A stretch of 64,000 nucleotides of DNA from Trametes villosa (taxonomy: Eukaryota; Basidiomycota; Agaricomycetes; Polyporales; Polyporaceae). The translations under genes and the position numbers were made by a program. Below, piece after piece: positions 516-59,735 of the stretch. Positions within the stretch are counted from its first letter, which is position 1. Each line of letters opens with the position of its first letter. Under the pieces are notes generated by a model. It was not told where the DNA came from. It was given only the letters and a program-made list of their open reading frames with translations, and searched no databases. The stretch is from assembly GCA_002964805.2 (NCBI GenBank), contig PUDQ02000018.1, positions 1 through 64,000 on the forward strand. Direction: 5' to 3'.

Positions 516-3500
516 GAGGACGAACGGACCCGGCGCCCGTCTCGTCCTGTAGCTGGGACTACACCATCTCATTTGTAACTATCGGCCAGCAGCGCAGAAA
601 TGCATACCTGCTATCCGGATATGTTGAGTGTGGACCCAAAGTCGTCGGAATCCGAGCCCTATTCGACTCAGGCGCGGATGCAACAATCCTCAACCGTCGC
701 ATCGTCAATCAATATAATCTCCCTACGGTCAAACTACCAAAACCAATCCGATTCCGAAACGCGGATGACAGCATTAACACCATTGGAGAGGTCACCCACC
801 GAGTGGAATCCAACTTCGTGGTCCGAGGACACGAACTACCCACGAACTTCTACGTCGCCGACCTAGGACGGGACAACGCCATTCTAGGCATTCCATGGAT
901 CCGACGATACAATCCAAAGGTCAATTGGAACTCGGGACATTTCGAGTTTGACCCGAAGATTATCAAGAAACAACAACTCCGTCGAGAATACCAGCAACAT
1001 CACGACCCCCCACCAGGAGTCCCAATGTGGGGACTACCACGAACGACAACAGCAGACCCAGAAGGGGTCCATCAATTCATCAGGAGAACCTCGGAAGATC
1101 TAGAAGACGACGATACCTGGAACGTCCAGGCCAATACGATCTTGAGTTCTCTCAAACAACAATCCAAAGACCTCACTATCGGACGAGCAACAATGTCAAC
1201 TAATCTAGCAATCAAGGCACACGAAGGGCAAAAGGTCAAGACACTCGAAGAACTACTGCCAGAATATTTGTTAGACCTACGAGACGTTTTTGACAAAAAA
1301 TCCGCGGAGCGCATGCCCATTACAAGACCATGGGACCATGACATCAAGCTAAAAGCAGAATTTGTACCCCGCGACTGCAAGATTATTCCATTATCCCCAG
1401 CAGAACGAGGAGAACTCGACAAGTTTGTGGACGAAAACCTCGCCAAAGGATATATACGACCCTCCAAATCACCAATGGCATCACCATTCTTCTTCGTCAA
1501 AAAGAAGGATGGCTCACTACGACCGGTCCAAGACTACCGATACCTCAATGATGGAACGATCAAGGACGCAGGACCTCTACCACTCATATCCGACCTATTT
1601 GACAAGCTAGGCGGAGCGAAATACTTTACCAAACTCGACGTTCGAGCAGGATACAACAATGTCCGCATCAAGGAAGGCGATCAATGGAAGGCAGCGTTCA
1701 AAACCCCTCGAGGACTGTTCGAACCAACAGTTATGTTCTTTGGACTCTGCAATGCTCCCGCAACCTTCCAAACCATGATGAACGCCATCTTCCACGACTA
1801 CCTATCAGAAGGATGGCTAGTAATCTATATGGACGACATCCTACTCTTCTCCGACAACCTCGAAGATCTACGCAAACACACGCGGCTAGTAATCGAACGA
1901 CTATGCGACAACGATCTATACCTCAAGGCAGAGAAATGCGAGTTTGAAGTTCAACGGGTAGAATTCCTAGGAGCAATCGTGTCGCCAGGACAAGTATCAA
2001 TGGACCCAGTCAAGCTCGACGGACTAAAGGACTGGCCTACTCCAACGACAGTCAAACAGGTCCAAAGCTTCCTAGGATTTGCGAACTTCTACCGGAGGTT
2101 CATACGAGGATTCGCCGACCTAGCAAGACCCCTGAACGACTTAACTCGGAAGGATAACCCATGGAAGTGGACCCCCGCATGCGAACAAGCATTCCAAGAC
2201 ATCAAGAAGCGCTTCATCGAGGAGCCTATTCTGCTTCAACCGGACGCATCAAAACCATTCCAAATCGAGTGCGACGCGTCCAAAGTCGCCACCGGGGCGG
2301 TGTTGAGGCAAAAAGGGGAGGAAGGGATATGGCACCCCTGTGCATATCTATCAAAATCCTTTACCGAAACCGAACGCAACTACCAGATCTACGACCGCGA
2401 ACTCCTTGCCATCATCCGAGCACTGGAAACATGGAGACACTACATCGAGGGCGCCAAACAACCCGTAGAAATCCTGTCAGATCACAAGAACTTGACATAT
2501 TGGCGCAGTGCTAGAAAACTCAACCGAAGACAAGCACGATGGAGCAACTTCTTATCCGAATTCAACTACGTCATCAGACATCTACCAGGAAAAAGCCTGG
2601 TCCAAGCCGACGCTCTATCCAGAAGACCAGACCACGACCCAGGAGACCACGATAACGAAGAAGTCACTATGATCCCGGGAGATCTATTCGCCAAGGCAGT
2701 CCACGTTGACCTCCAGGAATTAATCCGCAGCACCACTTCTCGTGACAAATCAGTCATGGACTCAACCAATGGAGCATGGCACCTCAAGAAGGAACCTATC
2801 TTTGGAACCAAGACCGACTGGCGCATGGACGACGGCATTGTTCTCTTCAAAGGGAAAGTCTATGTCCCACCCGAAGATAATATCCGCCGAGAAGTAGTCC
2901 GCCTACACCACGAACCAGCGGTCATGGGACACCCCGGAATCCAAAAAACCTTCGAACTTGTCAGCCGAGAATACTGGTGGCCAGGCATGCGACACTTCAT
3001 CACCCAATACGTCAAAGGATGCGCAACATGCCAAACCGCTAAAGTCAACACACATCCCACCAAACCCGGAATAATGCCTATTCCACACAGCGGATCAACA
3101 AGGCCGTTCGGCACGATAACAATGGACTACGTCACCGGACTCCCTTTATCCAACGGATTCGACGCAATTCAAGTGGTTGTCGACCACGACGAATCCAAGG
3201 CTATTGTTCTCTCGGAATGTACAAAGGAAACCAACGCCATGGACACCGCACATCTTCTCGTGAGAGATGTGTACTCCCGATTTGGACTTCCGGACCGCAT
3301 CATATCCGACCGAGGCCCGCAATTCATCTCACACGCATACCAAGAAATGAATAAACTCCTCGGGATTGGCCAATCGCTCAGCACGTCTCACCACCCTCAA
3401 ACCGACGGACAATCAGAACGGACCATTCAAGAAATCGAAGTCGCACTGCGGATCTATTGTGGGAACTACCCCGACACGTGGAGCACCCTCTTGCCACAAT

Positions 3501-4159
3501 TTGAATTCGCGCACAATCACCGGACTCATTCAGTCACTGGGAAAAGCCCCTTCGAACTTCTGATGGGATATCAACCACGAGCTATAGGCACCGTACACCC
3601 TAAGCCCAAGCACCCCAGCACGGAAGAACGATTGAATCACCTCAAGGAACTCCGAGAAAACGCCATCGCCTCCCACGCAAAGGCCGCCGCCGCCATGGCC
3701 AAGAGACAGGCAGCAGGCAATGTGACCTTCCAGAAGGGAGATAAGGTGTTCCTCGAATCCACGAACCTCAAGTTGCCCTATCCCAACCGGAAACTCGCAC
3801 CAAAACGAGAAGGTCCCTTTGTCATCGACGAAGTCATGGGACCTACCACCGTGAAACTCCGACTCCCAAAGGCATGGAAGATTCATCCAGTATTTCACAC
3901 CGCCTTGATCACGCACTACCGAACCACCCCAGAACACGGTCCGAATTACGTGTCACCACCACCGGACACAATTGACGGAGAGGAAGAGTGGGAAATCGAA
4001 GCAATTATCAATCACAGGAAGCCAGCCCGTGGAGGAATCCAGTACCTAGTCACATGGAAAGGCCGTCCGCAGCACGAGAACGAGTGGTTACGTGAGAAAG
4101 ATCTCAAACACGCACAAGCAACTCTTCAACGCTACAAAAGGCTGCACAAGATGGCCTGA
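491..4159 (+). CDS. pol: Pol polyprotein (PR-RT-RNase H-integrase-chromodomain), read by -1 shift from gag
   Basis: This frame is open from 491 and has no ATG of its own near the start, which fits expression as a Gag-Pol fusion after a -1 shift. Domains in order: aspartic protease with LFDSGADAT (about nt 658-684); reverse transcriptase with the KKKDGSLRPVQDYRYLN region and the catalytic YMDD box (about 1829-1840); RNase H with ECDASK and YDRELLAI; integrase with an HHCC zinc domain (HHEP...HPG, CATCQ) and a DDE core (MDYVTGLP, SDRGPQF, then DGQSERTIQEIE); a GPF/Y-like KREGPFVIDEV; and a chromodomain ending in YLVTWKGRPQHENEWL. Key catalytic residues appear intact, so the enzyme set may be functional. 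The stop is at 4157-4159. Confidence 0.93.
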   Translation, partial: RRRRLGFLGGRTDPAPVSSCSWDYTISFVTIGQQRRNAYLLSGYVECGPKVVGIRALFDSGADATILNRRIVNQYNLPTVKLPKPIRFRNADDSINTIGEVTHRVESNFVVRGHELPTNFYVADLGRDNAILGIPWIRRYNPKVNWNSGHFEFDPKIIKKQQLRREYQQHHDPPPGVPMWGLPRTTTADPEGVHQFIRRTSEDLEDDDTWNVQANTILSSLKQQSKDLTIGRATMSTNLAIKAHEGQKVKTLEELLPEYLLDLRDVFDKKSAERMPITRPWDHDIKLKAEFVPRDCKIIPLSPAERGELDKFVDENLAKGYIRPSKSPMASPFFFVKKKDGSLRPVQDYRYLNDGTIKDAGPLPLISDLFDKLGGAKYFTKLDVRAGYNNVRIKEGDQWKAAFKTPRGLFEPTVMFFGLCNAPATFQTMMNAIFHDYLSEGWLVIYMDDILLFSDNLEDLRKHTRLVIERLCDNDLYLKAEKCEFEVQRVEFLGAIVSPGQVSMDPVKLDGLKDWPTPTTVKQVQSFLGFANFYRRFIRGFADLARPLNDLTRKDNPWKWTPACEQAFQDIKKRFIEEPILLQPDASKPFQIECDASKVATGAVLRQKGEEGIWHPCAYLSKSFTETERNYQIYDRELLAIIRALETWRHYIEGAKQPVEILSDHKNLTYWRSARKLNRRQARWSNFLSEFNYVIRHLPGKSLVQADALSRRPDHDPGDHDNEEVTMIPGDLFAKAVHVDLQELIRSTTSRDKSVMDSTNGAWHLKKEPIFGTKTDWRMDDGIVLFKGKVYVPPEDNIRREVVRLHHEPAVMGHPGIQKTFELVSREYWWPGMRHFITQYVKGCATCQTAKVNTHPTKPGIMPIPHSGSTRPFGTITMDYVTGLPLSNGFDAIQVVVDHDESKAIVLSECTKETNAMDTAHLLVRDVYSRFGLPDRIISDRGPQFISHAYQEMNKLLGIGQSLSTSHHPQTDGQSERTIQEIEVALRIYCGNYPDTWSTLLPQFEFAHNHRTHSVTGKSPFELLMGYQPRAIGTVHPKPKHPSTEERLNHLKELRENAIASHAKAAAAMAKRQAAGNVTFQKGDKVFLESTNLKLPYPNRKLAPKREGPFVIDEVMGPTTVKLRLPKAWKIHPVFHTALITHYRTTPEHGPNYVSPPPDTIDGEEEWEIEAIINHRKPARGGIQYLVTWKGRPQHENEWLREKDLKHAQATLQRYKRLHKMA

Positions 4160-4241
4160 AGTCCCCAGACCCTGCCCACTCTGGATTCTCTCAATCCCCT
4201 CGCACTACTCCTCCTCGACTTCGACAGCCTCAGCTTCGACA

Positions 4242-5738
4242 ATGGCCCGCAACCACCGCTCTCGCCGCCAACACCGCACTCGCTCCTCGAACTCCCCCTC
4301 TCCGATCAATCGACTCCAAGCCCCCATCCTGGGACGCCTCGTCCCTCCTGCACCCTCCTTTGTGAAGGGGGTGAACCCGACCTACGACCACCTCCCTCGC
4401 CTCCCCACTGCGTCCTATTCCAATGGGACTCTGCCCGACCGGCTCGGGTGGACTCTCCTCCACCCCGATCTCCAGGCGATTACCAATCAACGCCTCGTCT
4501 CGCTCCCCGGAACACGTCACTGGGTCGACGTGTACCGGATGTGCGGCGACGTCCTTCCCGCTCTCCGCCACATGGACAACTACGTCCAGAACCATCCGGA
4601 CCCCCAGGAGATCGTTTTCCTCAGGCAGGCGAACGTCTCCTACACCGCCGCCTTCAGCAGGGTCATCCAGATCGCCGAGGTCGCCCTCAACCAAGTCGCC
4701 CTCTACCCCGCTCTGGGCATGATCGAAGATCTGCTTCCCCGCCGCCGCGCCGGATGGAACGCCCCACAGCCTAACCCCACTCACGACGGACCCGCCCGCA
4801 TCGACTGCATGCTGGGCACCAACGGTAGCCGCGACCCCCTCTACAAGATCACGGAGGACACCACGAGGTGGGGAGTCCCCAACGGCAACTGGGAAAGTTG
4901 GGACGACAACAAGGAGAACGAGCCCCCTATCGCGGACTTCTCCGAGGTGCAAGTCTCCACTCCTGAACCCCCCAGCTCGTCGACGAGCTCCTCCTCAGAG
5001 TGGCACGACGTGAGGCAAGCCCTCGAAGACCGACTCACGTCCCCGGTCCCCGAATCCGTTCACACTCCCCCCATCTCAACGCCTTCTCTCCTCGAACCGC
5101 CCACTCGCAACTCATCCCCCGAATACATCCCTCTCTCGCCTACCTCATCGTCAATGCCCAGCCTGGAAACCGACGACTCCTACATGGACGACCCCGATAC
5201 CGACGCCCTCGTCGCCTACATCGCTCCCATCCCCGGGAGTACTCGCGCATTCATCAGGACGGTTTGGCCAGAAGAGAAGCCTATTCATCCCTCGGAGTTC
5301 AGCGACGTCAACCGCCTCGCCGCGATTCCCACCGCCCTCTTACCCCCTCTCCAACGCGCTATGATAGCTGCATTCCGCGTCCAGACCGGCTACTACATCC
5401 CCGACGCCGACCTACACATGCCCTTCGCCACCCTCCGCTATGTCGCCTCATCCATCGCCAAAGAGGTGGACCCTCACTACCCAGGCCTCGACATGACCAG
5501 CGACAGGAATGCGAAGGCCAAGGTCTACGCCATTCGCGTCCCTATCGACAGCATGCGCGAACCGGGAGGATGGAAAGATTTTGAAGCGGATTTGGCCACT
5601 GCAGCATCGACCTCGTCAATCCTACCCACTCCTGCTTCGGCCCAAATCCCCACTCCCCCGAAGCTTCCTGAACCGCCGAAGCTCCCGGAGTTCGTCGTCC
5701 GCCGGCGCAAGGCCTTTACCGACACCATGACGGACTAG
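4242..5738 (+). CDS. Additional retrotransposon ORF downstream of pol, function unknown
   Basis: A 498-residue ORF begins with an ATG 82 bases after the pol stop and ends 37 bases before the 3' LTR. Its frame is open back to about 4092, overlapping the end of pol in the +1 frame, so a frameshift fusion is also possible. The N-terminus is very basic (RSRRQHRTR), a predicted globular part follows, then a Ser/Pro/acidic disordered middle (about residues 210-320), another globular part, and a basic C-terminus after PPKLPEPPKLPE repeats. There is no signal peptide, membrane segment or zinc motif, so it does not look like an envelope protein despite the env-like position. I do not recognise the family. 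The intact frame over 1.5 kb suggests coding use. Confidence 0.7.
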   Translation: MARNHRSRRQHRTRSSNSPSPINRLQAPILGRLVPPAPSFVKGVNPTYDHLPRLPTASYSNGTLPDRLGWTLLHPDLQAITNQRLVSLPGTRHWVDVYRMCGDVLPALRHMDNYVQNHPDPQEIVFLRQANVSYTAAFSRVIQIAEVALNQVALYPALGMIEDLLPRRRAGWNAPQPNPTHDGPARIDCMLGTNGSRDPLYKITEDTTRWGVPNGNWESWDDNKENEPPIADFSEVQVSTPEPPSSSTSSSSEWHDVRQALEDRLTSPVPESVHTPPISTPSLLEPPTRNSSPEYIPLSPTSSSMPSLETDDSYMDDPDTDALVAYIAPIPGSTRAFIRTVWPEEKPIHPSEFSDVNRLAAIPTALLPPLQRAMIAAFRVQTGYYIPDADLHMPFATLRYVASSIAKEVDPHYPGLDMTSDRNAKAKVYAIRVPIDSMREPGGWKDFEADLATAASTSSILPTPASAQIPTPPKLPEPPKLPEFVVRRRKAFTDTMTD

Positions 5739-9844: not shown

Positions 9845-10497
9845 CCCCCTTTCGGACATCGCACCATCACTACCGCCCCCCTCCCTGCCAACTTCACGAC
9901 TCCCTTCACGAACTCTATGACGTATACCACGGTCCCCAGTCTTGGGACCGCCCGCACTACGATACGTCGCCCTCTATTGGAACTTATTACTCCTTCAACG
10001 CGGTCGCTGCTGTACCACTACTCATTCCGCCGCCGCAGTCATGTATCAAGGTTAACATTAACGTAAATGTAACAACGCCCCTTCGAATATTCACGAGCAT
10101 ATACGAGATTCTCGCTTCGATGTATGTGGCTCCTTGCAGTGGGCATGTTCCCGGTAACGGCGATATTCCTTGTAGGCTCGAGGGGCATAGAGCGCCGGCT
10201 GTTCCGCCGCGACGTCAGGGGAAGGCTGCCCTAGTTCTATCTCGCCTTACAAAGTCAGCCTCGCACTTCAGTTTGGTAGCCTCGTGGCGACGTCCTACCA
10301 GCTGCTACAGGTGACATGCTCTAGATTGGACACCGACTGGACAGCGCGTCAGCCTCCCACTGCCAGCCTCCCGCCTCCCGCGAGATCGGCACTGTATCCC
10401 AACGAGCCCGATGGGCCCGACGGCCGATAAGCTCTGTACCGTACAGCTACAGCAGTGGTGGTAAGTGATCGAACGACGCAGCGGAATGCCAGCCTGT
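9845..10497. other. Intergenic, 3' flank of PA-TM-RING gene
   Basis: No gene seen. From about 10341 there are degenerate TCAGCCTCCC-like segments resembling the left edge of the structured repeat that starts near 10498. Confidence 0.4.
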
Positions 10498-10790
10498 GCC
10501 AGCCTCCCGCCGCTCCGGGGATCAATACCTCGCAAGAGCGACATCTGCTCCTCATTCCCGTCTTCCACCCTCTGAGACCGAAGATGGGTGGTCCATTCTA
10601 CAAGACGACGGGTCTTATCGTCCAGCAAGAGGACGAACATAAAGGTGCGTCTCGAGGGAGGAGCTTCGGCTCTGGCGCATACCTTTTCGTGGTCCTCGGG
10701 ATAAGTACCCTCTGTGCGCTGCCTCTGCCTGGGGTAGCGCGCAGGTGGGGAAACCAAAATGCGCTTTCTGCTTCTTTTTTTGCGTTTGGT
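10498..10790 (+). repeat. Structured dispersed repeat, copy 1
   Basis: This segment matches 46501-46797 (same strand) and 59205-59508 (opposite strand). Hairpins in order: CGCTC/GAGCG (10511-10515 with 10536-10540); CCACCC/GGGTGG (10565-10570 with 10586-10591); AAGAC/GTCTT (10602-10606 with 10612-10616); TCGTCC/GGACGA (10618-10623 with 10631-10636); GAGC-TTCG-GCTC (10661-10672); and GTGCGCTGCC/GGTAGCGCGC (10714-10723 with 10733-10742). A conserved GGTGGGGAAACC block and a seven-T run (10775-10781) follow. The copies differ by indels around 10641 that break any reading frame, so it is not protein coding. It lies between the 3' ends of two convergent genes. A SINE-like retroposon or a non-coding RNA gene family are the main options. 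Confidence 0.8.
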
Positions 10791-20251: not shown

Positions 20252-20347
20252 AGGTGGCGCCCGCCTGCGATCCTACAATTGCACCCACTACAAGCATACA
20301 GGTGGCGCCCGCCTGCGATCCTACAATTGCACCCACTACAAGCATAC
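20252..20347. repeat. Perfect 48-bp tandem duplication
   Basis: Units 20252-20299 and 20300-20347 are identical and begin AGGTGGCGCCCGCCTGCGAT. The array ends about 100 bp upstream of the start codon at 20451, in the promoter or 5' UTR. The unit length is a multiple of three, but no gene is supported here. Confidence 0.9.
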
Positions 20348-43562: not shown

Positions 43563-45047
43563 CTAGGTGGCGCGCAAACGTTCACCGAGCGTATCCTGCA
43601 GCTCTTGTCCATGCTCGTGGAGGAATTCGGAACAGCCTACAATCGCCACGCTCTCCAACGTCTCTGCCCGCCCTTCTTCCGCCGCCCAGTCCGTATACCT
43701 CACGCGGTCCTGGAGCGCCTCCACCAGCGCTTCACCAGAGACCCGTTGGCAGTGCCATATTGAGAGCCGAGTGAGGCTCGGCAGGCGCACCGCCCACGAC
43801 CCGCGCGGGTCGTCCGCCTCCTTCAGGTTCGCAAGCCCGAACGCGAGGCAGCGGCGGCGGTACGGCGCGAGCATCGCGACGACGCGGTCGGACATGTCCG
43901 AGCCGACGATGCGGAACTCGCGGAGGCGGTCGAGGCGGTCGAAGCACCAGCGGAAGTCCTTCGTGCGCATGTCCGCGTAGTCCATGTGCAGCACCTCCAG
44001 CGGCGGGCGGCTGCGGCGGAGGAGCGCGCGGAGGCCCATGCCCGTCGCGTGGTCGCTCCAGGGCGACTGCGAGAAGTCGTGCGCCTCGTCGTCGCTCTCG
44101 CCGTCGTCGGGCGGCGCCTGCAGCGCGACGTACGGGTCCGTGCGCAGCTCGAAGTCGACGTTCGTGTGCTCGAGGTAGAGCTCCGCGAGCGCGGGCGCGT
44201 CGAGGTGCGAGAGCAGCGCGCGCACGGAGCAGGTGCTCCGCAGGAGCAGGATGCGGAGGTTCGGGAGGCGTACCGCGTGGAGGAGCCCCGGGAGGACCGG
44301 CTCGCCCTCCTGCGGCCAGCCCGCGAAGTGGAGCGTCTCGAGGAGGGGCAGGCAGCGGAGGAAGTTGAGCATGCGCACGACGTCGGTCGAGACGTCGAGC
44401 GAGAACTCGGTGATGCAGAGGGACGTGATGGGGACGGGCTTCATCACTGACCCGAGCGGGAGCGCGTACACGGAGAGGTGCATCGAGAGCTCCGGGGGGC
44501 CATCGGAGGGGCCGTGCACGCGAAAGACGTTTGAGAAGAGCCGGTCCTCGGTGGAGTCGGAGTCGGCATTCAGACCTATGGCGGAGACGCCTTTGACGAG
44601 GACGTTGAGCTCGTCGACGAGGCACGCGCGGGTGCGGTCGAAGTCGTACTTGGAGAAGTCGAACTCTTCCTCGTGAGTTCCGGCGATGGCGCACTTCCGT
44701 AGGCGCTGCATCTGCGAGAGAACCGGGGAGAGCAAGGGGAGGATCATGTCGATCGTCCGTGCCTCGACGCGGACGTCGAAGGGAAGCGGGTCCGACTTGA
44801 ATATCCACCACGCCGCCTGATCGTGCGAGAGCGCGGTCGGGTGGTGTTCGTATAGATATATGCGCTGCCAGATGCGGGGGGAGAGGTAGGTGACGTCCCG
44901 CCAGTAGCGGCATACTTGGCCGAGGATAACTGGAGCAAGATCGTCAGAGGGGTCATCAGAACAGGAGATGAAGATGTCTATGAGAAGCTCCGGCGGGAGG
45001 TGGTGGACGGGGGAGATCCCGAGGGGACGAGGAGAGATGGCGGACAT
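43563..45047 (-). CDS. F-box/LRR-like protein
   Basis: A single open frame of 494 residues from an ATG at 45047 (MSAISPRPLGISPVHHLPPE). A clear F-box follows (HHLPPELLIDIFISCSD...VILGQVCRYWRDVTYLSPRIW), which would bind Skp1. The remainder has irregular leucine-rich repeats (LCITEFSLDVSTDV, LETLHFAGWP, LPNLRILLLRSTC, LAELYLEHTNVDF, LEVLHMDYADM, LREFRIVGSDM, LTRLSIWHC), a probable substrate-binding surface. The frame is open further upstream, but that part is not F-box-like and overlaps the probable promoter. It belongs to the large mushroom F-box family; the target is unknown. Confidence 0.85.
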   Translation of the reverse strand: MSAISPRPLGISPVHHLPPELLIDIFISCSDDPSDDLAPVILGQVCRYWRDVTYLSPRIWQRIYLYEHHPTALSHDQAAWWIFKSDPLPFDVRVEARTIDMILPLLSPVLSQMQRLRKCAIAGTHEEEFDFSKYDFDRTRACLVDELNVLVKGVSAIGLNADSDSTEDRLFSNVFRVHGPSDGPPELSMHLSVYALPLGSVMKPVPITSLCITEFSLDVSTDVVRMLNFLRCLPLLETLHFAGWPQEGEPVLPGLLHAVRLPNLRILLLRSTCSVRALLSHLDAPALAELYLEHTNVDFELRTDPYVALQAPPDDGESDDEAHDFSQSPWSDHATGMGLRALLRRSRPPLEVLHMDYADMRTKDFRWCFDRLDRLREFRIVGSDMSDRVVAMLAPYRRRCLAFGLANLKEADDPRGSWAVRLPSLTRLSIWHCQRVSGEALVEALQDRVRYTDWAAEEGRAETLESVAIVGCSEFLHEHGQELQDTLGERLRAT

Positions 45048-45472
45048 CGTGGTCGTCGCTGCCCACGACGAAGTCGGAAGTAAGGCGCGCTCCTGCAGTT
45101 GGGGCGCGCTAATTTGGAAACTCACGGCACCAGGCCCGTCCTCAGTCGCCTGAAAACACCCGACGGCCCTCACACCCTTGCGTCCGCACAACCGCCGCGA
45201 GAACAAACCACACAACATCGCATTCCTGTGGGAAACAAAGAGCGAGAGAAAGGCAGAACAGGATCACATTCGAGGGCAGACATGAGGGCAGGAGGGAAAG
45301 AGCGCCCGCCCCGTCCCGTTATGGCAGCTGACTAAGCACAGAACTGCACAGAACTGGGTGCTGGCTCTGAACTCAATTTTACCGTTCCTGCCTCCACATA
45401 CCGCCGCCAACGACGCGCCCGCCGCTCTCCCGCCCGTCCTCAAGGTAATCTCGCTCCTCCCTCGACCTCAAA
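45048..45472. other. Divergent promoter, F-box / eS19 genes
   Basis: 425 bp. A purine-rich segment (about 45235-45310) lies in the middle. No defined motif. Confidence 0.4.
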
Positions 45473-46080: not shown

Positions 46081-46500
46081 ATGCGCGCCCGCCCACCCTA
46101 GGCTAGGTGATCGCGAGCGGTCCGCTCTGTGGGCCCGGGCATGCCCCCTCCCCGTGTTGTATCAACCATCCCCGCCCCCTCTGCCCCTCGTCCCGACCCG
46201 CACGGCGACCGACACGAGCGACCACGACGTATGCTACATGCCATCCAAAATTCTAGGCAGTACACTGTATCTCATCCATGGCGTTTTTTCCTTGGTGCTC
46301 TCTGAACCTGCTTTGTGCTTTCTGGTATCATTCCCTCGGTGTCTCTGAAAGAAGCGGGGCGCGTGTGGCAACGATACCCGGTCTGAACTGGACTGCATCC
46401 CCGCCTCAACGAGGCTGACGCGATCGACAGATGTACTGCTAAAGACTTTGCGGCGCGTTGTGTCGATCGAGTGCTGTGGCGTGTCTTCCACAGCCCTGTC
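46081..46500. other. Intergenic, 3' flank of eS19 gene
   Basis: No gene seen; leads directly into repeat copy 2. Confidence 0.45.
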
Positions 46501-46797
46501 AGCCTCCAGCCAGCCTCCCGCCGCCCGGGGGATAAGTGCCGTGCCCGGGCAACAAATGCTCCTCATTCCCGTCTTCCACCCTCTGAGACCGAAGATGGGT
46601 GGTACATTCTACAAGACGACGGGTCTTATCGTCCAGCAAGAGGACGAACATTAAGGTGCGTCTCGAGGGAGGAGCTTCGGCTCTGGCGCATACCTTTTCG
46701 TGGTCCTCGGGATAAGTACCCTCTGCGCATCGCCTCTACTGTTGGGGACGGTGCGCGGGTGGGGAAACCAAAATGCGCTTTCTCGTTCTCGTTTCTT
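46501..46797 (+). repeat. Structured dispersed repeat, copy 2
   Basis: Same element as 10498-10790. The 5' stem is GCCCGGG/CCCGGGC (46523-46529 with 46544-46550). The core from about 46558 to 46720 is almost identical to copy 1, including the CCACCC/GGGTGG, AAGAC/GTCTT, TCGTCC/GGACGA and GAGC-TTCG-GCTC hairpins. The variable hairpin is GCGCATCGCC with GACGGTGCGC (46725-46734 with 46747-46756, 9 of 10 paired counting G-U). The 3' tail is T-rich but lacks a run of four Ts. It lies between the 3' ends of the convergent eS19 and desaturase genes. Confidence 0.8.
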
Positions 46798-59204: not shown

Positions 59205-59508
59205 CCGCCCCCGGAACGAAAAAAGAGAAAGCGCATTTTGGTTTCCCCACCCGCGCGCCGCCCCAGAAGGCGACGAGCGAAGGGTACTCATCCCGAGGAC
59301 CACGAAAAGGTATGCGCCAGAGCCGAAGCTCCTCCCTCGAGACGCACCTTGTATGTTCGTCCTCTTGCTGGACGATAAGACCCGGCGTCTTGTAGAATGT
59401 ACCACCCATCTTCGGTCTCAGAGGGTGGAAGACGGGAATGAGGAGCAGTTGTCGCCCGAGCACGGTACTTATCCCCCGGGCGGCGGGCGGCAGGCAGGAG
59501 GCTGACAT
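59205..59508 (-). repeat. Structured dispersed repeat, copy 3
   Basis: Same element as at 10498 and 46501, in reverse orientation. On the minus strand the 5' stem is CGCCCGGG/CTCGGGCG (59475-59482 with 59453-59460, one G-U pair). The four core hairpins are present, with only the AAGAC/GTCTT loop changed by one base. The variable hairpin pairs GCTCGTCGCC with GGCGGCGCGC (59269-59278 with 59253-59262, 9 of 10 counting G-U). A six-T run on the minus strand lies at 59219-59224. It sits between two tandem GH30 genes, beside a GST-like fragment. Confidence 0.8.
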
Positions 59509-59663
59509 GCGCTGCGGTGGTCGACGTCGATCGCTTGAGAGCCGCACCCGGATAGAGCCTCTAGATCGTCAGCCGCACATGGCGTGTACGAGAACGTGGT
59601 GAGCTCGCGCGCCCAGTCGAGATTGCAACGGCGGTGGACGTCGACGCGTCTCCAGGGGCAGGA

Positions 59664-59735
59664 CGTCTTGTCGAGGTAGCGGACGATGAGGGTGGACTCC
59701 GCGAGCGCCGTCTTCGTGTTCGGGTCGTAGGTCCG
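59664..59735 (-). pseudogene. Possible glutathione S-transferase gene fragment
   Basis: About 24 residues (TYDPNTKTALAESTLIVRYL then DKT) resemble the end of the N-terminal thioredoxin-like domain of fungal GSTs, where a (S/E)S-x-x-I-x-x-YLD motif binds the gamma-glutamyl group of glutathione. The expected YP and helical domain do not follow in any frame. A short relic next to repeat copy 3 is the best reading; a chance match cannot be excluded. Confidence 0.3.

Follow-up and report, generated by a model that had tools for sequence, protein, structure and literature searches.

What kind of RNA is encoded by a structured repeat that recurs within 64 kb of a fungal genome, and how might the ends of this RNA be formed? 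The repeat is found in the stretch of 64,000 nucleotides analyzed here (the window; contig C18:1-64000), where three copies located at 10498-10790 (+), 46501-46797 (+) and 59205-59508 (-) had been predicted to represent a single new RNA family transcribed by RNA polymerase III. The positions of the three copies were confirmed. A search of the window with CAAAATGCGCTTTCT, allowing up to two mismatches, returned these three copies (chance mean 0.03) and no fourth one. We then used the segment window:46530-46790 to search the genome (46.7 Mb in 140 contigs), which gave at least 40 matches (40 of 74 candidates scored), consisting of 36 full units and four matches with the 3' half alone. Searching with the RNA body alone (window:46559-46661) yielded at least 36 matches (36 of 36 candidates scored), all of which coincide by their coordinates with the 36 full units; a body without the ribozyme was not present among these 36 matches.

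The alignment of the 36 copies revealed the order of the elements within a unit: motifs resembling TGTCAGCCTCC and CCAGCCTCC, preceded in many copies by an inverted GAGGCTGAC, then a TATA-like box, a spacer of variable sequence, the RNA body and the ribozyme, 3' of which conservation is lost. The core of about 185 bases defined by the original prediction is indeed conserved, but the conserved start of the unit lies further upstream. The repeat is a composite structured RNA, made up of a promoter-like block, an RNA of about 97 nt and a ribozyme domain of about 115 nt.

The conserved RNA body

The body extends from CTCCTCATTCCC to GGTGCGT and is almost invariant, with a mean column identity of 97% across the 36 copies, which describes conservation among paralogues of one genome. 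It is located at 10548..10650 (+) in copy 1, at 46559..46661 (+) in copy 2 and at 59342..59445 (-) in copy 3. The RNAs proposed to be made from it comprise positions 10554-10650 (97 nt), 46565-46661 (97 nt) and 59439-59342 (98 nt), respectively; the one of copy 1 has two predicted hairpins, and its 3' end coincides with the predicted ribozyme cut. In 31 copies the body ends directly at P1 of the ribozyme and in five copies 2 nt before it. The length variation noted earlier between copies (AAA, TAA or ACAA) proved to be real in the 36-copy alignment.

For the copy 2 body a minimum free energy of -33.1 kcal/mol was calculated (z -2.0 versus dinucleotide shuffles, with 6 of 200 shuffles folding at least as well). 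The predicted fold consists of two hairpins, the second of which closes with the final nucleotides 5' of the ribozyme. Applied to the alignment, the fold has 96.8% of the cells paired, as opposed to 39-54% when the partners are slid. In 5 of 32 distinct rows one of the pairs is G-C in place of U-A, and one such pair is reached by 312 of 500 shuffles; since most body pairs never vary, those pairs neither support nor refute the fold. The predicted hairpins CCACCC/GGGTGG, TCGTCC/GGACGA and GAGC-TTCG-GCTC are present in the sequence. The strands of a fourth one, AAGAC/GTCTT, exist as well, but both have other pairing partners in the best fold. That the body is nearly invariant may be due in part to gene conversion, which leaves, however, the compensated change in P4 of the ribozyme unexplained. 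All 36 bodies end at the cut in AAGGTGCGT, which resembles a 5' splice site; a splicing or introner reading of this stretch is weakened because it can pair inside the body in the predicted fold.

Protein coding was rejected: an ATG-led frame is located in the most conserved stretch, but the ATG is absent in 6 of the 36 copies, and one- or two-base indels are found 3' of it. The data support the view that the repeat is a multi-copy structured RNA conserved as RNA rather than as protein. ARAGORN detected no tRNA in the window. A guide RNA of a Fanzor/TnpB protein was rejected as well, with no PF07282 match in the genome at E 0.001, using a model of uncertain sensitivity for eukaryotic Fanzors (it matched six control genomes out of 14, all of them prokaryotic). 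Viral and prokaryotic sequence collections, which say little about fungi, contained no pattern match. None of all 4227 Rfam models matched the repeat, and a search of seven loci with E up to 10 resulted in one chance-level mir-2756 match outside the domain; the 3' domain could still be assigned to a published class, the fungal variant HDV-like ribozymes. Of the single new family originally predicted, the 3' half belongs to this known class and the 5' half of about 97 nt is still a candidate for a new RNA family.

The ribozyme domain and its class

Domains identified as HDV-like ribozymes were located at 10651..10765 (+) in copy 1, 46662..46779 (+) in copy 2 and 59230..59341 (-) in copy 3, with predicted cuts between 10650 and 10651 in copy 1 and between 59342 and 59341 in copy 3. 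The copy 1 domain scored 129.6 bits with CM R1, which was built from a set including this copy. In copy 2, P1 (46662-46668 with 46705-46711) is followed by the J1/2 hairpin (about 46671-46684), P2 (46685-46690 with 46774-46779), an extra nucleotide between P2 and P3 (46691), P3 (46692-46694 with 46702-46704) with its loop L3 (46695-46701), the loop E strand AGTA (46715-46718), P4 (about 46719-46763) and J4/2 with the candidate catalytic C at 46768. Since P1 crosses P2, the domain is a nested double pseudoknot, with the P3 and P4 hairpins in HDV order.

The ribozyme was also detected outside the window family, and domains were grouped into types named by context, the window family being type A. 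Comparison of the types showed P1 as CYCGRGG with CCUCGGG and, for C1/C2, as CCCGGGG with CUCCGGG, together with P2 as NCGCA with UGCGN, P3 as RCC with GGY, a variable P4 and the junction GGAARCYAR. Minimal forms have CCCGGGG with CCCCGGG and CCCAGGG with CCCUGGG as P1. The loop of 7 nt is mostly UUUUCGU, UUUCCGU or UCAUCGU.

The pairing was investigated in 57 distinct domains, a set that left out the degenerate L057 and L071. For P1, P2 and P3, 99.7% of 912 cells are paired, compared to 23-44% with slid partners. Three pairs within P1-P3 are changed on both sides, a number that 26 of 500 shuffles reach, and they are changed in 12 cells, which none of 500 shuffles reach. In addition, 83 domains (35 of type A and 48 others) were parsed by pattern; L091 was rejected by the parse, and L019, L057 and L071, which deviate from the pattern, were not counted. 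All seven P1 positions are paired in 81 of these 83 domains when the best 7-mer up to 60 nt upstream is compared with P1', and a shuffled P1' reaches 7/7 in 315 of 4150 control trials. Compensated changes in P1 were found at pair 4 (G-C to A-U, two domains) and at pair 5 (A-U to G-C, 20 domains), and P3 reads ACC/GGU in 57 domains and GCC/GGC in the other 26, without a single mixed helix. Since parts of P2, the lone nucleotide between P2 and P3, the length of the loop and GGAA were prescribed by the parse, these features are partly built in to the results for the 83 domains.

Both hairpins of the domain fold better than mononucleotide shuffles (z below -1.5), J1/2 in 57 of 57 domains and P4 in 54 of 57. 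When halves of these hairpins were exchanged among the 36 domains of type A, the mean energy rose from -26.97 to -23.26 kcal/mol for P4 and from -8.18 to -6.54 kcal/mol for J1/2; in neither case did any of 2000 permutations reach the native mean. Most pairs of ribozyme and body never vary, and the covariation counts are modest. Some copies carry damaged ribozymes, with a P1 mismatch in L020 and an insertion in the P3 loop of L019.

Li and Breaker (2017, PMC5640933) described 230 variants of HDV ribozymes from fungi, found in 26 species. These deviate from the canonical class by C-G pairing at the cleavage site, by a loop E motif that takes the place of part of P4, and by one additional nucleotide between P2 and P3; two of them cleaved in vitro at the base of P1. 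In the 83 domains parsed here, position 1 of P1 is C-G in 82 and U-G in one. A canonical purine at this position (R-Y at the cleavage site) is absent, with C in 82 domains and U in one, and the domain is for this reason filed under the fungal variant only. The consensus of loop E is AGUA/GAA; the strand found is AGUA in 82 of the 83 domains and AUUA in one, and the facing GAA was required by the search pattern, which makes it no independent test. The extra nucleotide between P2 and P3 is U in 47 domains, G in 35 and C in one, the parse having required exactly one nucleotide there. HDV-like ribozymes of the fungal variant type carry a cytosine in J4/2 followed by N-A-A. Here, J4/2 reads C-[C/T]-A-A in 78 domains and C-[C/T]-A-G in five, its first C and first A being required by the pattern. 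Canonical P1.1 consists of base pairs between L3 and J1/4; by eye, U-U/A-A is possible at this place in most type A domains and is not kept as pairs in type D. Since the three published peculiarities are present, the domain was filed as a fungal variant HDV-like ribozyme, and as no Rfam model matched, membership rests on a comparison with the published text description.

As far as that description goes, the domains share with the published variants (PMC5640933) the nested double pseudoknot, the C-G cleavage site, the loop E in P4, the extra nucleotide and the occurrence of many copies in fungal genomes. They differ in that types A-C have a J1/2 hairpin, and in that U or G is found as the extra nucleotide (C in one of 83 domains), whereas it is most commonly C in the published set. 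Furthermore, in the window family the ribozyme is always preceded by one and the same RNA body, which is nearly invariant and has a promoter-like block of its own. Neither Basidiomyc nor Trametes occurs as a word in the main text of PMC5640933. In large HDV-like ribozymes, as described in PMC4908430, a peripheral domain brings P1 and P2 together, and such domains speed up the ribozymes. The J1/2 hairpin may likewise do so here, a putative role in a ribozyme that, unlike the large ones, is of the fungal loop E variant. Taken together, the compensated changes and the diagnostic features show, at the level of sequence, a nested double pseudoknot of the fungal variant type.

The promoter-like block and a proposed route to the RNA 3' end

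A promoter-like block is located upstream of each copy. In copy 1 (10487..10527, +) it contains two CAGCCT motifs (TGCCAGCCTG and GCCAGCCTCCCGCC) and the TATA-like GATCAATA (10520-10527, +). The block of copy 2 (46497..46538, +) consists of TGTCAGCCTCC at 46497-46507, CCAGCCTCC and the TATA-like GATAAGTG (46531-46538, +), with an inverted GAGGCTGAC further upstream (46411-46419). The one of copy 3 (59466..59507, -) has TGTCAGCCTCC from 59507 down and the TATA-like GATAAGTA (59473-59466, -). Across the family the TATA-like box is GATAAGTA in 26 of the 36 copies and a close variant in the remainder. From its end to the A of TCATTCC the distance is 26 nt in all 36 copies, with a spacer of variable sequence; two copies have TTATTCC and one has CCATTCC instead of TCATTCC. 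Since this spacing is fixed despite the variable spacer, we read the block as a polymerase II core promoter, which it looks like, and the motif spacing would place the 5' end of the RNA at about the A of TCATTCC.

The promoter pattern TGTCARCCTCCYNNCAGCCTCC, with up to two mismatches, has 28 matches in the genome, compared to three for the reversed control. Of these, 25 are at family units (25 of 36) and three upstream of related open frames on contig C33; in the 11 units without such a match the block was recognized by eye in the printed flanks. The three related frames (L062-L064, contig C33, 132-191 kb) are 211-228 aa long in the stretch covered, have a hydrophobic N-terminal half and have the TGTCAGCCTCC promoter motif in common with the RNA genes; they possibly form one regulon with them. 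Differences between L063 and L064 by codon position are 39, 32 and 33 (the frame not being gap-aligned), without an excess at the third position, so that coding there rests only on the open frames of 211-228 aa.

These data make it probable that each copy is a small non-coding RNA gene, the RNA 3' end of which is formed by the ribozyme. A promoter of the polymerase II type, with TGTCAGCCTCC-like sites, TATA-like box and initiator, would start the transcript at about the A of TCATTCC. The first 97 nt or so, nearly invariant in the alignment, are predicted to fold into a two-hairpin RNA, and the next 115 nt or so would form the HDV-like nested double pseudoknot of the fungal variant type. As expected for its class, the ribozyme would cut the transcript immediately 5' of P1 (CYCGRGG). 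This would release the RNA of about 97 nt and give it a precise 3' terminus carrying a 2',3'-cyclic phosphate. In the predicted fold this terminus is flush with the terminal stem, and it would be formed without polyadenylation or a T-run terminator. Since the body abuts the ribozyme, its end lying at the predicted cut or 2 nt 5' of it, co-transcriptional self-cleavage that makes the 3' end is the simplest reading. From the invariance over 36 copies we infer a trans-acting partner, either protein or RNA, and the copy number of this strongly conserved, undescribed RNA of about 97 nt is suggestive of either a high dose or a partner of importance.

The closest precedent found is that of the theta ribozymes of gut phages (PMC10879173). 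There, too, the cleavage site often adjoins a small structured RNA, a tRNA, and processing of the tRNA 3' end was proposed. Those ribozymes are found in phages, next to tRNAs, and have a minimal subgroup without P4, whereas here a fungal genome and a non-tRNA body are involved. In the open-access literature searched, we found no description of 3'-end formation by an HDV-like ribozyme for nuclear genes. The list of functions for genome-scattered HDV-like ribozymes is called short in the same source (PMC10879173), and the purpose of most of them is unclear. Since in 36 of 36 units a ribozyme is found here behind the same conserved RNA, and each unit has a promoter-like block of its own, forming the 3' end of a nuclear non-coding RNA is a concrete candidate role.

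We regard it as unlikely that the copies are instead insertions of a SINE- or retrozyme-like mobile element that is non-autonomous and contains the HDV-like ribozyme. The family is dispersed in 36 copies, and HDV-like ribozymes are known from mobile elements such as R2 and the trypanosome L1Tc (PMC4035085, PMC3774820). The domains described here resemble those of R2 and L1Tc/ingi in being dispersed and genomic. The latter are, however, part of retrotransposons (for R2 at the 5' end of the element), whereas no element was found here and the conserved unit carries its ribozyme 3'-terminally, in contrast to the 5' position in R2 or L1Tc. There are four copy pairs in direct orientation, with distances of about 0.85-1.1 kb; their spacers are alike, which identifies them as duplicated blocks, and neighboring sequence is co-duplicated in several cases. 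Word matches between the two flanks of a copy have a mean of 7.19, compared to 6.59 in permuted pairs (reached by 0 of 200 permutations), a slight excess that could hint at an old insertion, but with wider flank windows the values are 7.67 versus 7.22-7.24 for reversed or shuffled flanks, and the offsets are inconsistent. Target-site duplications at fixed element ends, with consistent offsets, were not found in the flanks, and the upstream homology fades gradually and differs among subgroups. Moreover, old insertions should decay evenly, whereas almost no variation is seen in the body and the changes in the ribozyme hairpins are compensated pairwise.

We consider it rather improbable that the ribozyme acts in cis, that is, that it lies in an untranslated region or intron and controls the RNA of a neighboring gene, with the body as a leader. 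The 5' splice-site-like AAGGTGCGT directly 5' of the ribozyme would fit such a role, and relatives of the ribozyme (the C56 array and type D, see below) adjoin splice-like signals in some cases. The open frames up to 1.5 kb on each side, however, differ among the copies in similarity and orientation, on which grounds a leader or 3' UTR of a gene family was rejected, and the copies have their own promoter block, with a TGTCARCCTCCYNNCAGCCTCC-type match in 25 of 36, recognition by eye in the others and the 26-nt spacing in 36 of 36.

The runs of 7 and 6 T behind window copies 1 and 3, from which polymerase III transcription with T-run termination had been predicted, are peculiar to these copies: in the 60 nt after the element the longest run is 2-4 T in 30 of the 36 copies, 5 in four, and 6 and 7 in one each, the latter two being window copies 3 and 1 (printed flanks). 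A polymerase III small RNA is very improbable, since runs of at least six T follow 2 of 36 copies only (at least five in 6 of 36) and the TATA-like box with initiator, like the promoter motif common to open frames, suggests polymerase II, even though type 3 promoters of polymerase III may also have a TATA element.

The ribozyme in other genomic contexts

To return to the proposed gene with a ribozyme-formed 3' end, the same ribozyme was found elsewhere in the genome. The pattern GGGGAAACCAAAATGCG, with up to one mismatch, has 61 genome matches (control 0), and a P2-P3-P1' pattern with up to three mismatches has 159 (control 1), about the first 100 of which were located on the contigs. The ribozyme type occurs in at least four contexts besides the window family. 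Type B, on contig C1 at about 8.3-8.8 Mb, carries a few hundred nt of short repeats 5' of the domain, and the promoter motif of the window family is present in the members read. Its loci are located at 8.33-8.78 Mb (L037-L040, L049-L052 and L065-L071) and have a repeat body with CTTCAAGAYGACG-like motifs; three type B genes lie within about 6.5 kb in L052. An interpretation of L037-L040 as accidental fusions was rejected, as they belong to another type of gene that has the promoter motif in common with the window family. In type C, the domain follows other long bodies on C3, C24, C34, C55 and further contigs, and the promoter motif or its inverted form is found about 0.75-0.8 kb upstream in some.

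A tandem array on contig C56 (L073, G000:C56:660000-668500) contains at least nine HDV-like domains, several of which are spaced by about 0.3-0.4 kb; GTGCCTCAAG repeats as well as splice-like signals are located in between. Five more pattern matches just upstream of it, at C56:657765-659166, suggest a second similar array. Type D is a minimal HDV-like form of about 80 nt without the J1/2 hairpin and is dispersed on C1 and C3 (L076-L077, L079-L086 and L052:7245-7330). Nine of 11 type D loci have a conserved GGCAGAGGYTGGGGTAT stretch, and GTACGT-like splice signals are located near several.

Since the ribozyme and, in several cases, the promoter motif are joined to other RNA bodies, the combination of promoter, body and ribozyme looks like a gene format. 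We tentatively suggest a class of polymerase II non-coding RNA genes in which a built-in HDV-like ribozyme replaces polyadenylation, with 36 genes for one 97-nt RNA and further types that share the ribozyme. If so, this wood-decay fungus would have a co-regulated, ribozyme-processed non-coding transcriptome centered on an undescribed abundant small RNA, and other gene types, such as repeat-bearing and tandem-array transcripts, would share the ribozyme and several of them the promoter motif.

Further features were observed in the window and the flanks of the copies. Open frames upstream of two of the copies, L009 and L013, have about 68% of residues in common over 240 aa and look, by eye, like glutathione S-transferase genes; a short stretch similar to them is located upstream of window copy 3, possibly at 59520-59700 (-). 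The window encodes an F-box protein at 43563-45218, the closest relative of which is from Trametes versicolor (84% identical residues, query coverage 90%), making a Trametes-like polypore the host. Near the window start a Ty3/gypsy-type retroelement (803-5738), which has no link to the RNA family, contains a frame with RT, RNase H, integrase and chromodomain (803-4159) and a second frame (4092-5738) without a Pfam match. A perfect 48-bp unit is present in two tandem copies at 20252-20347.
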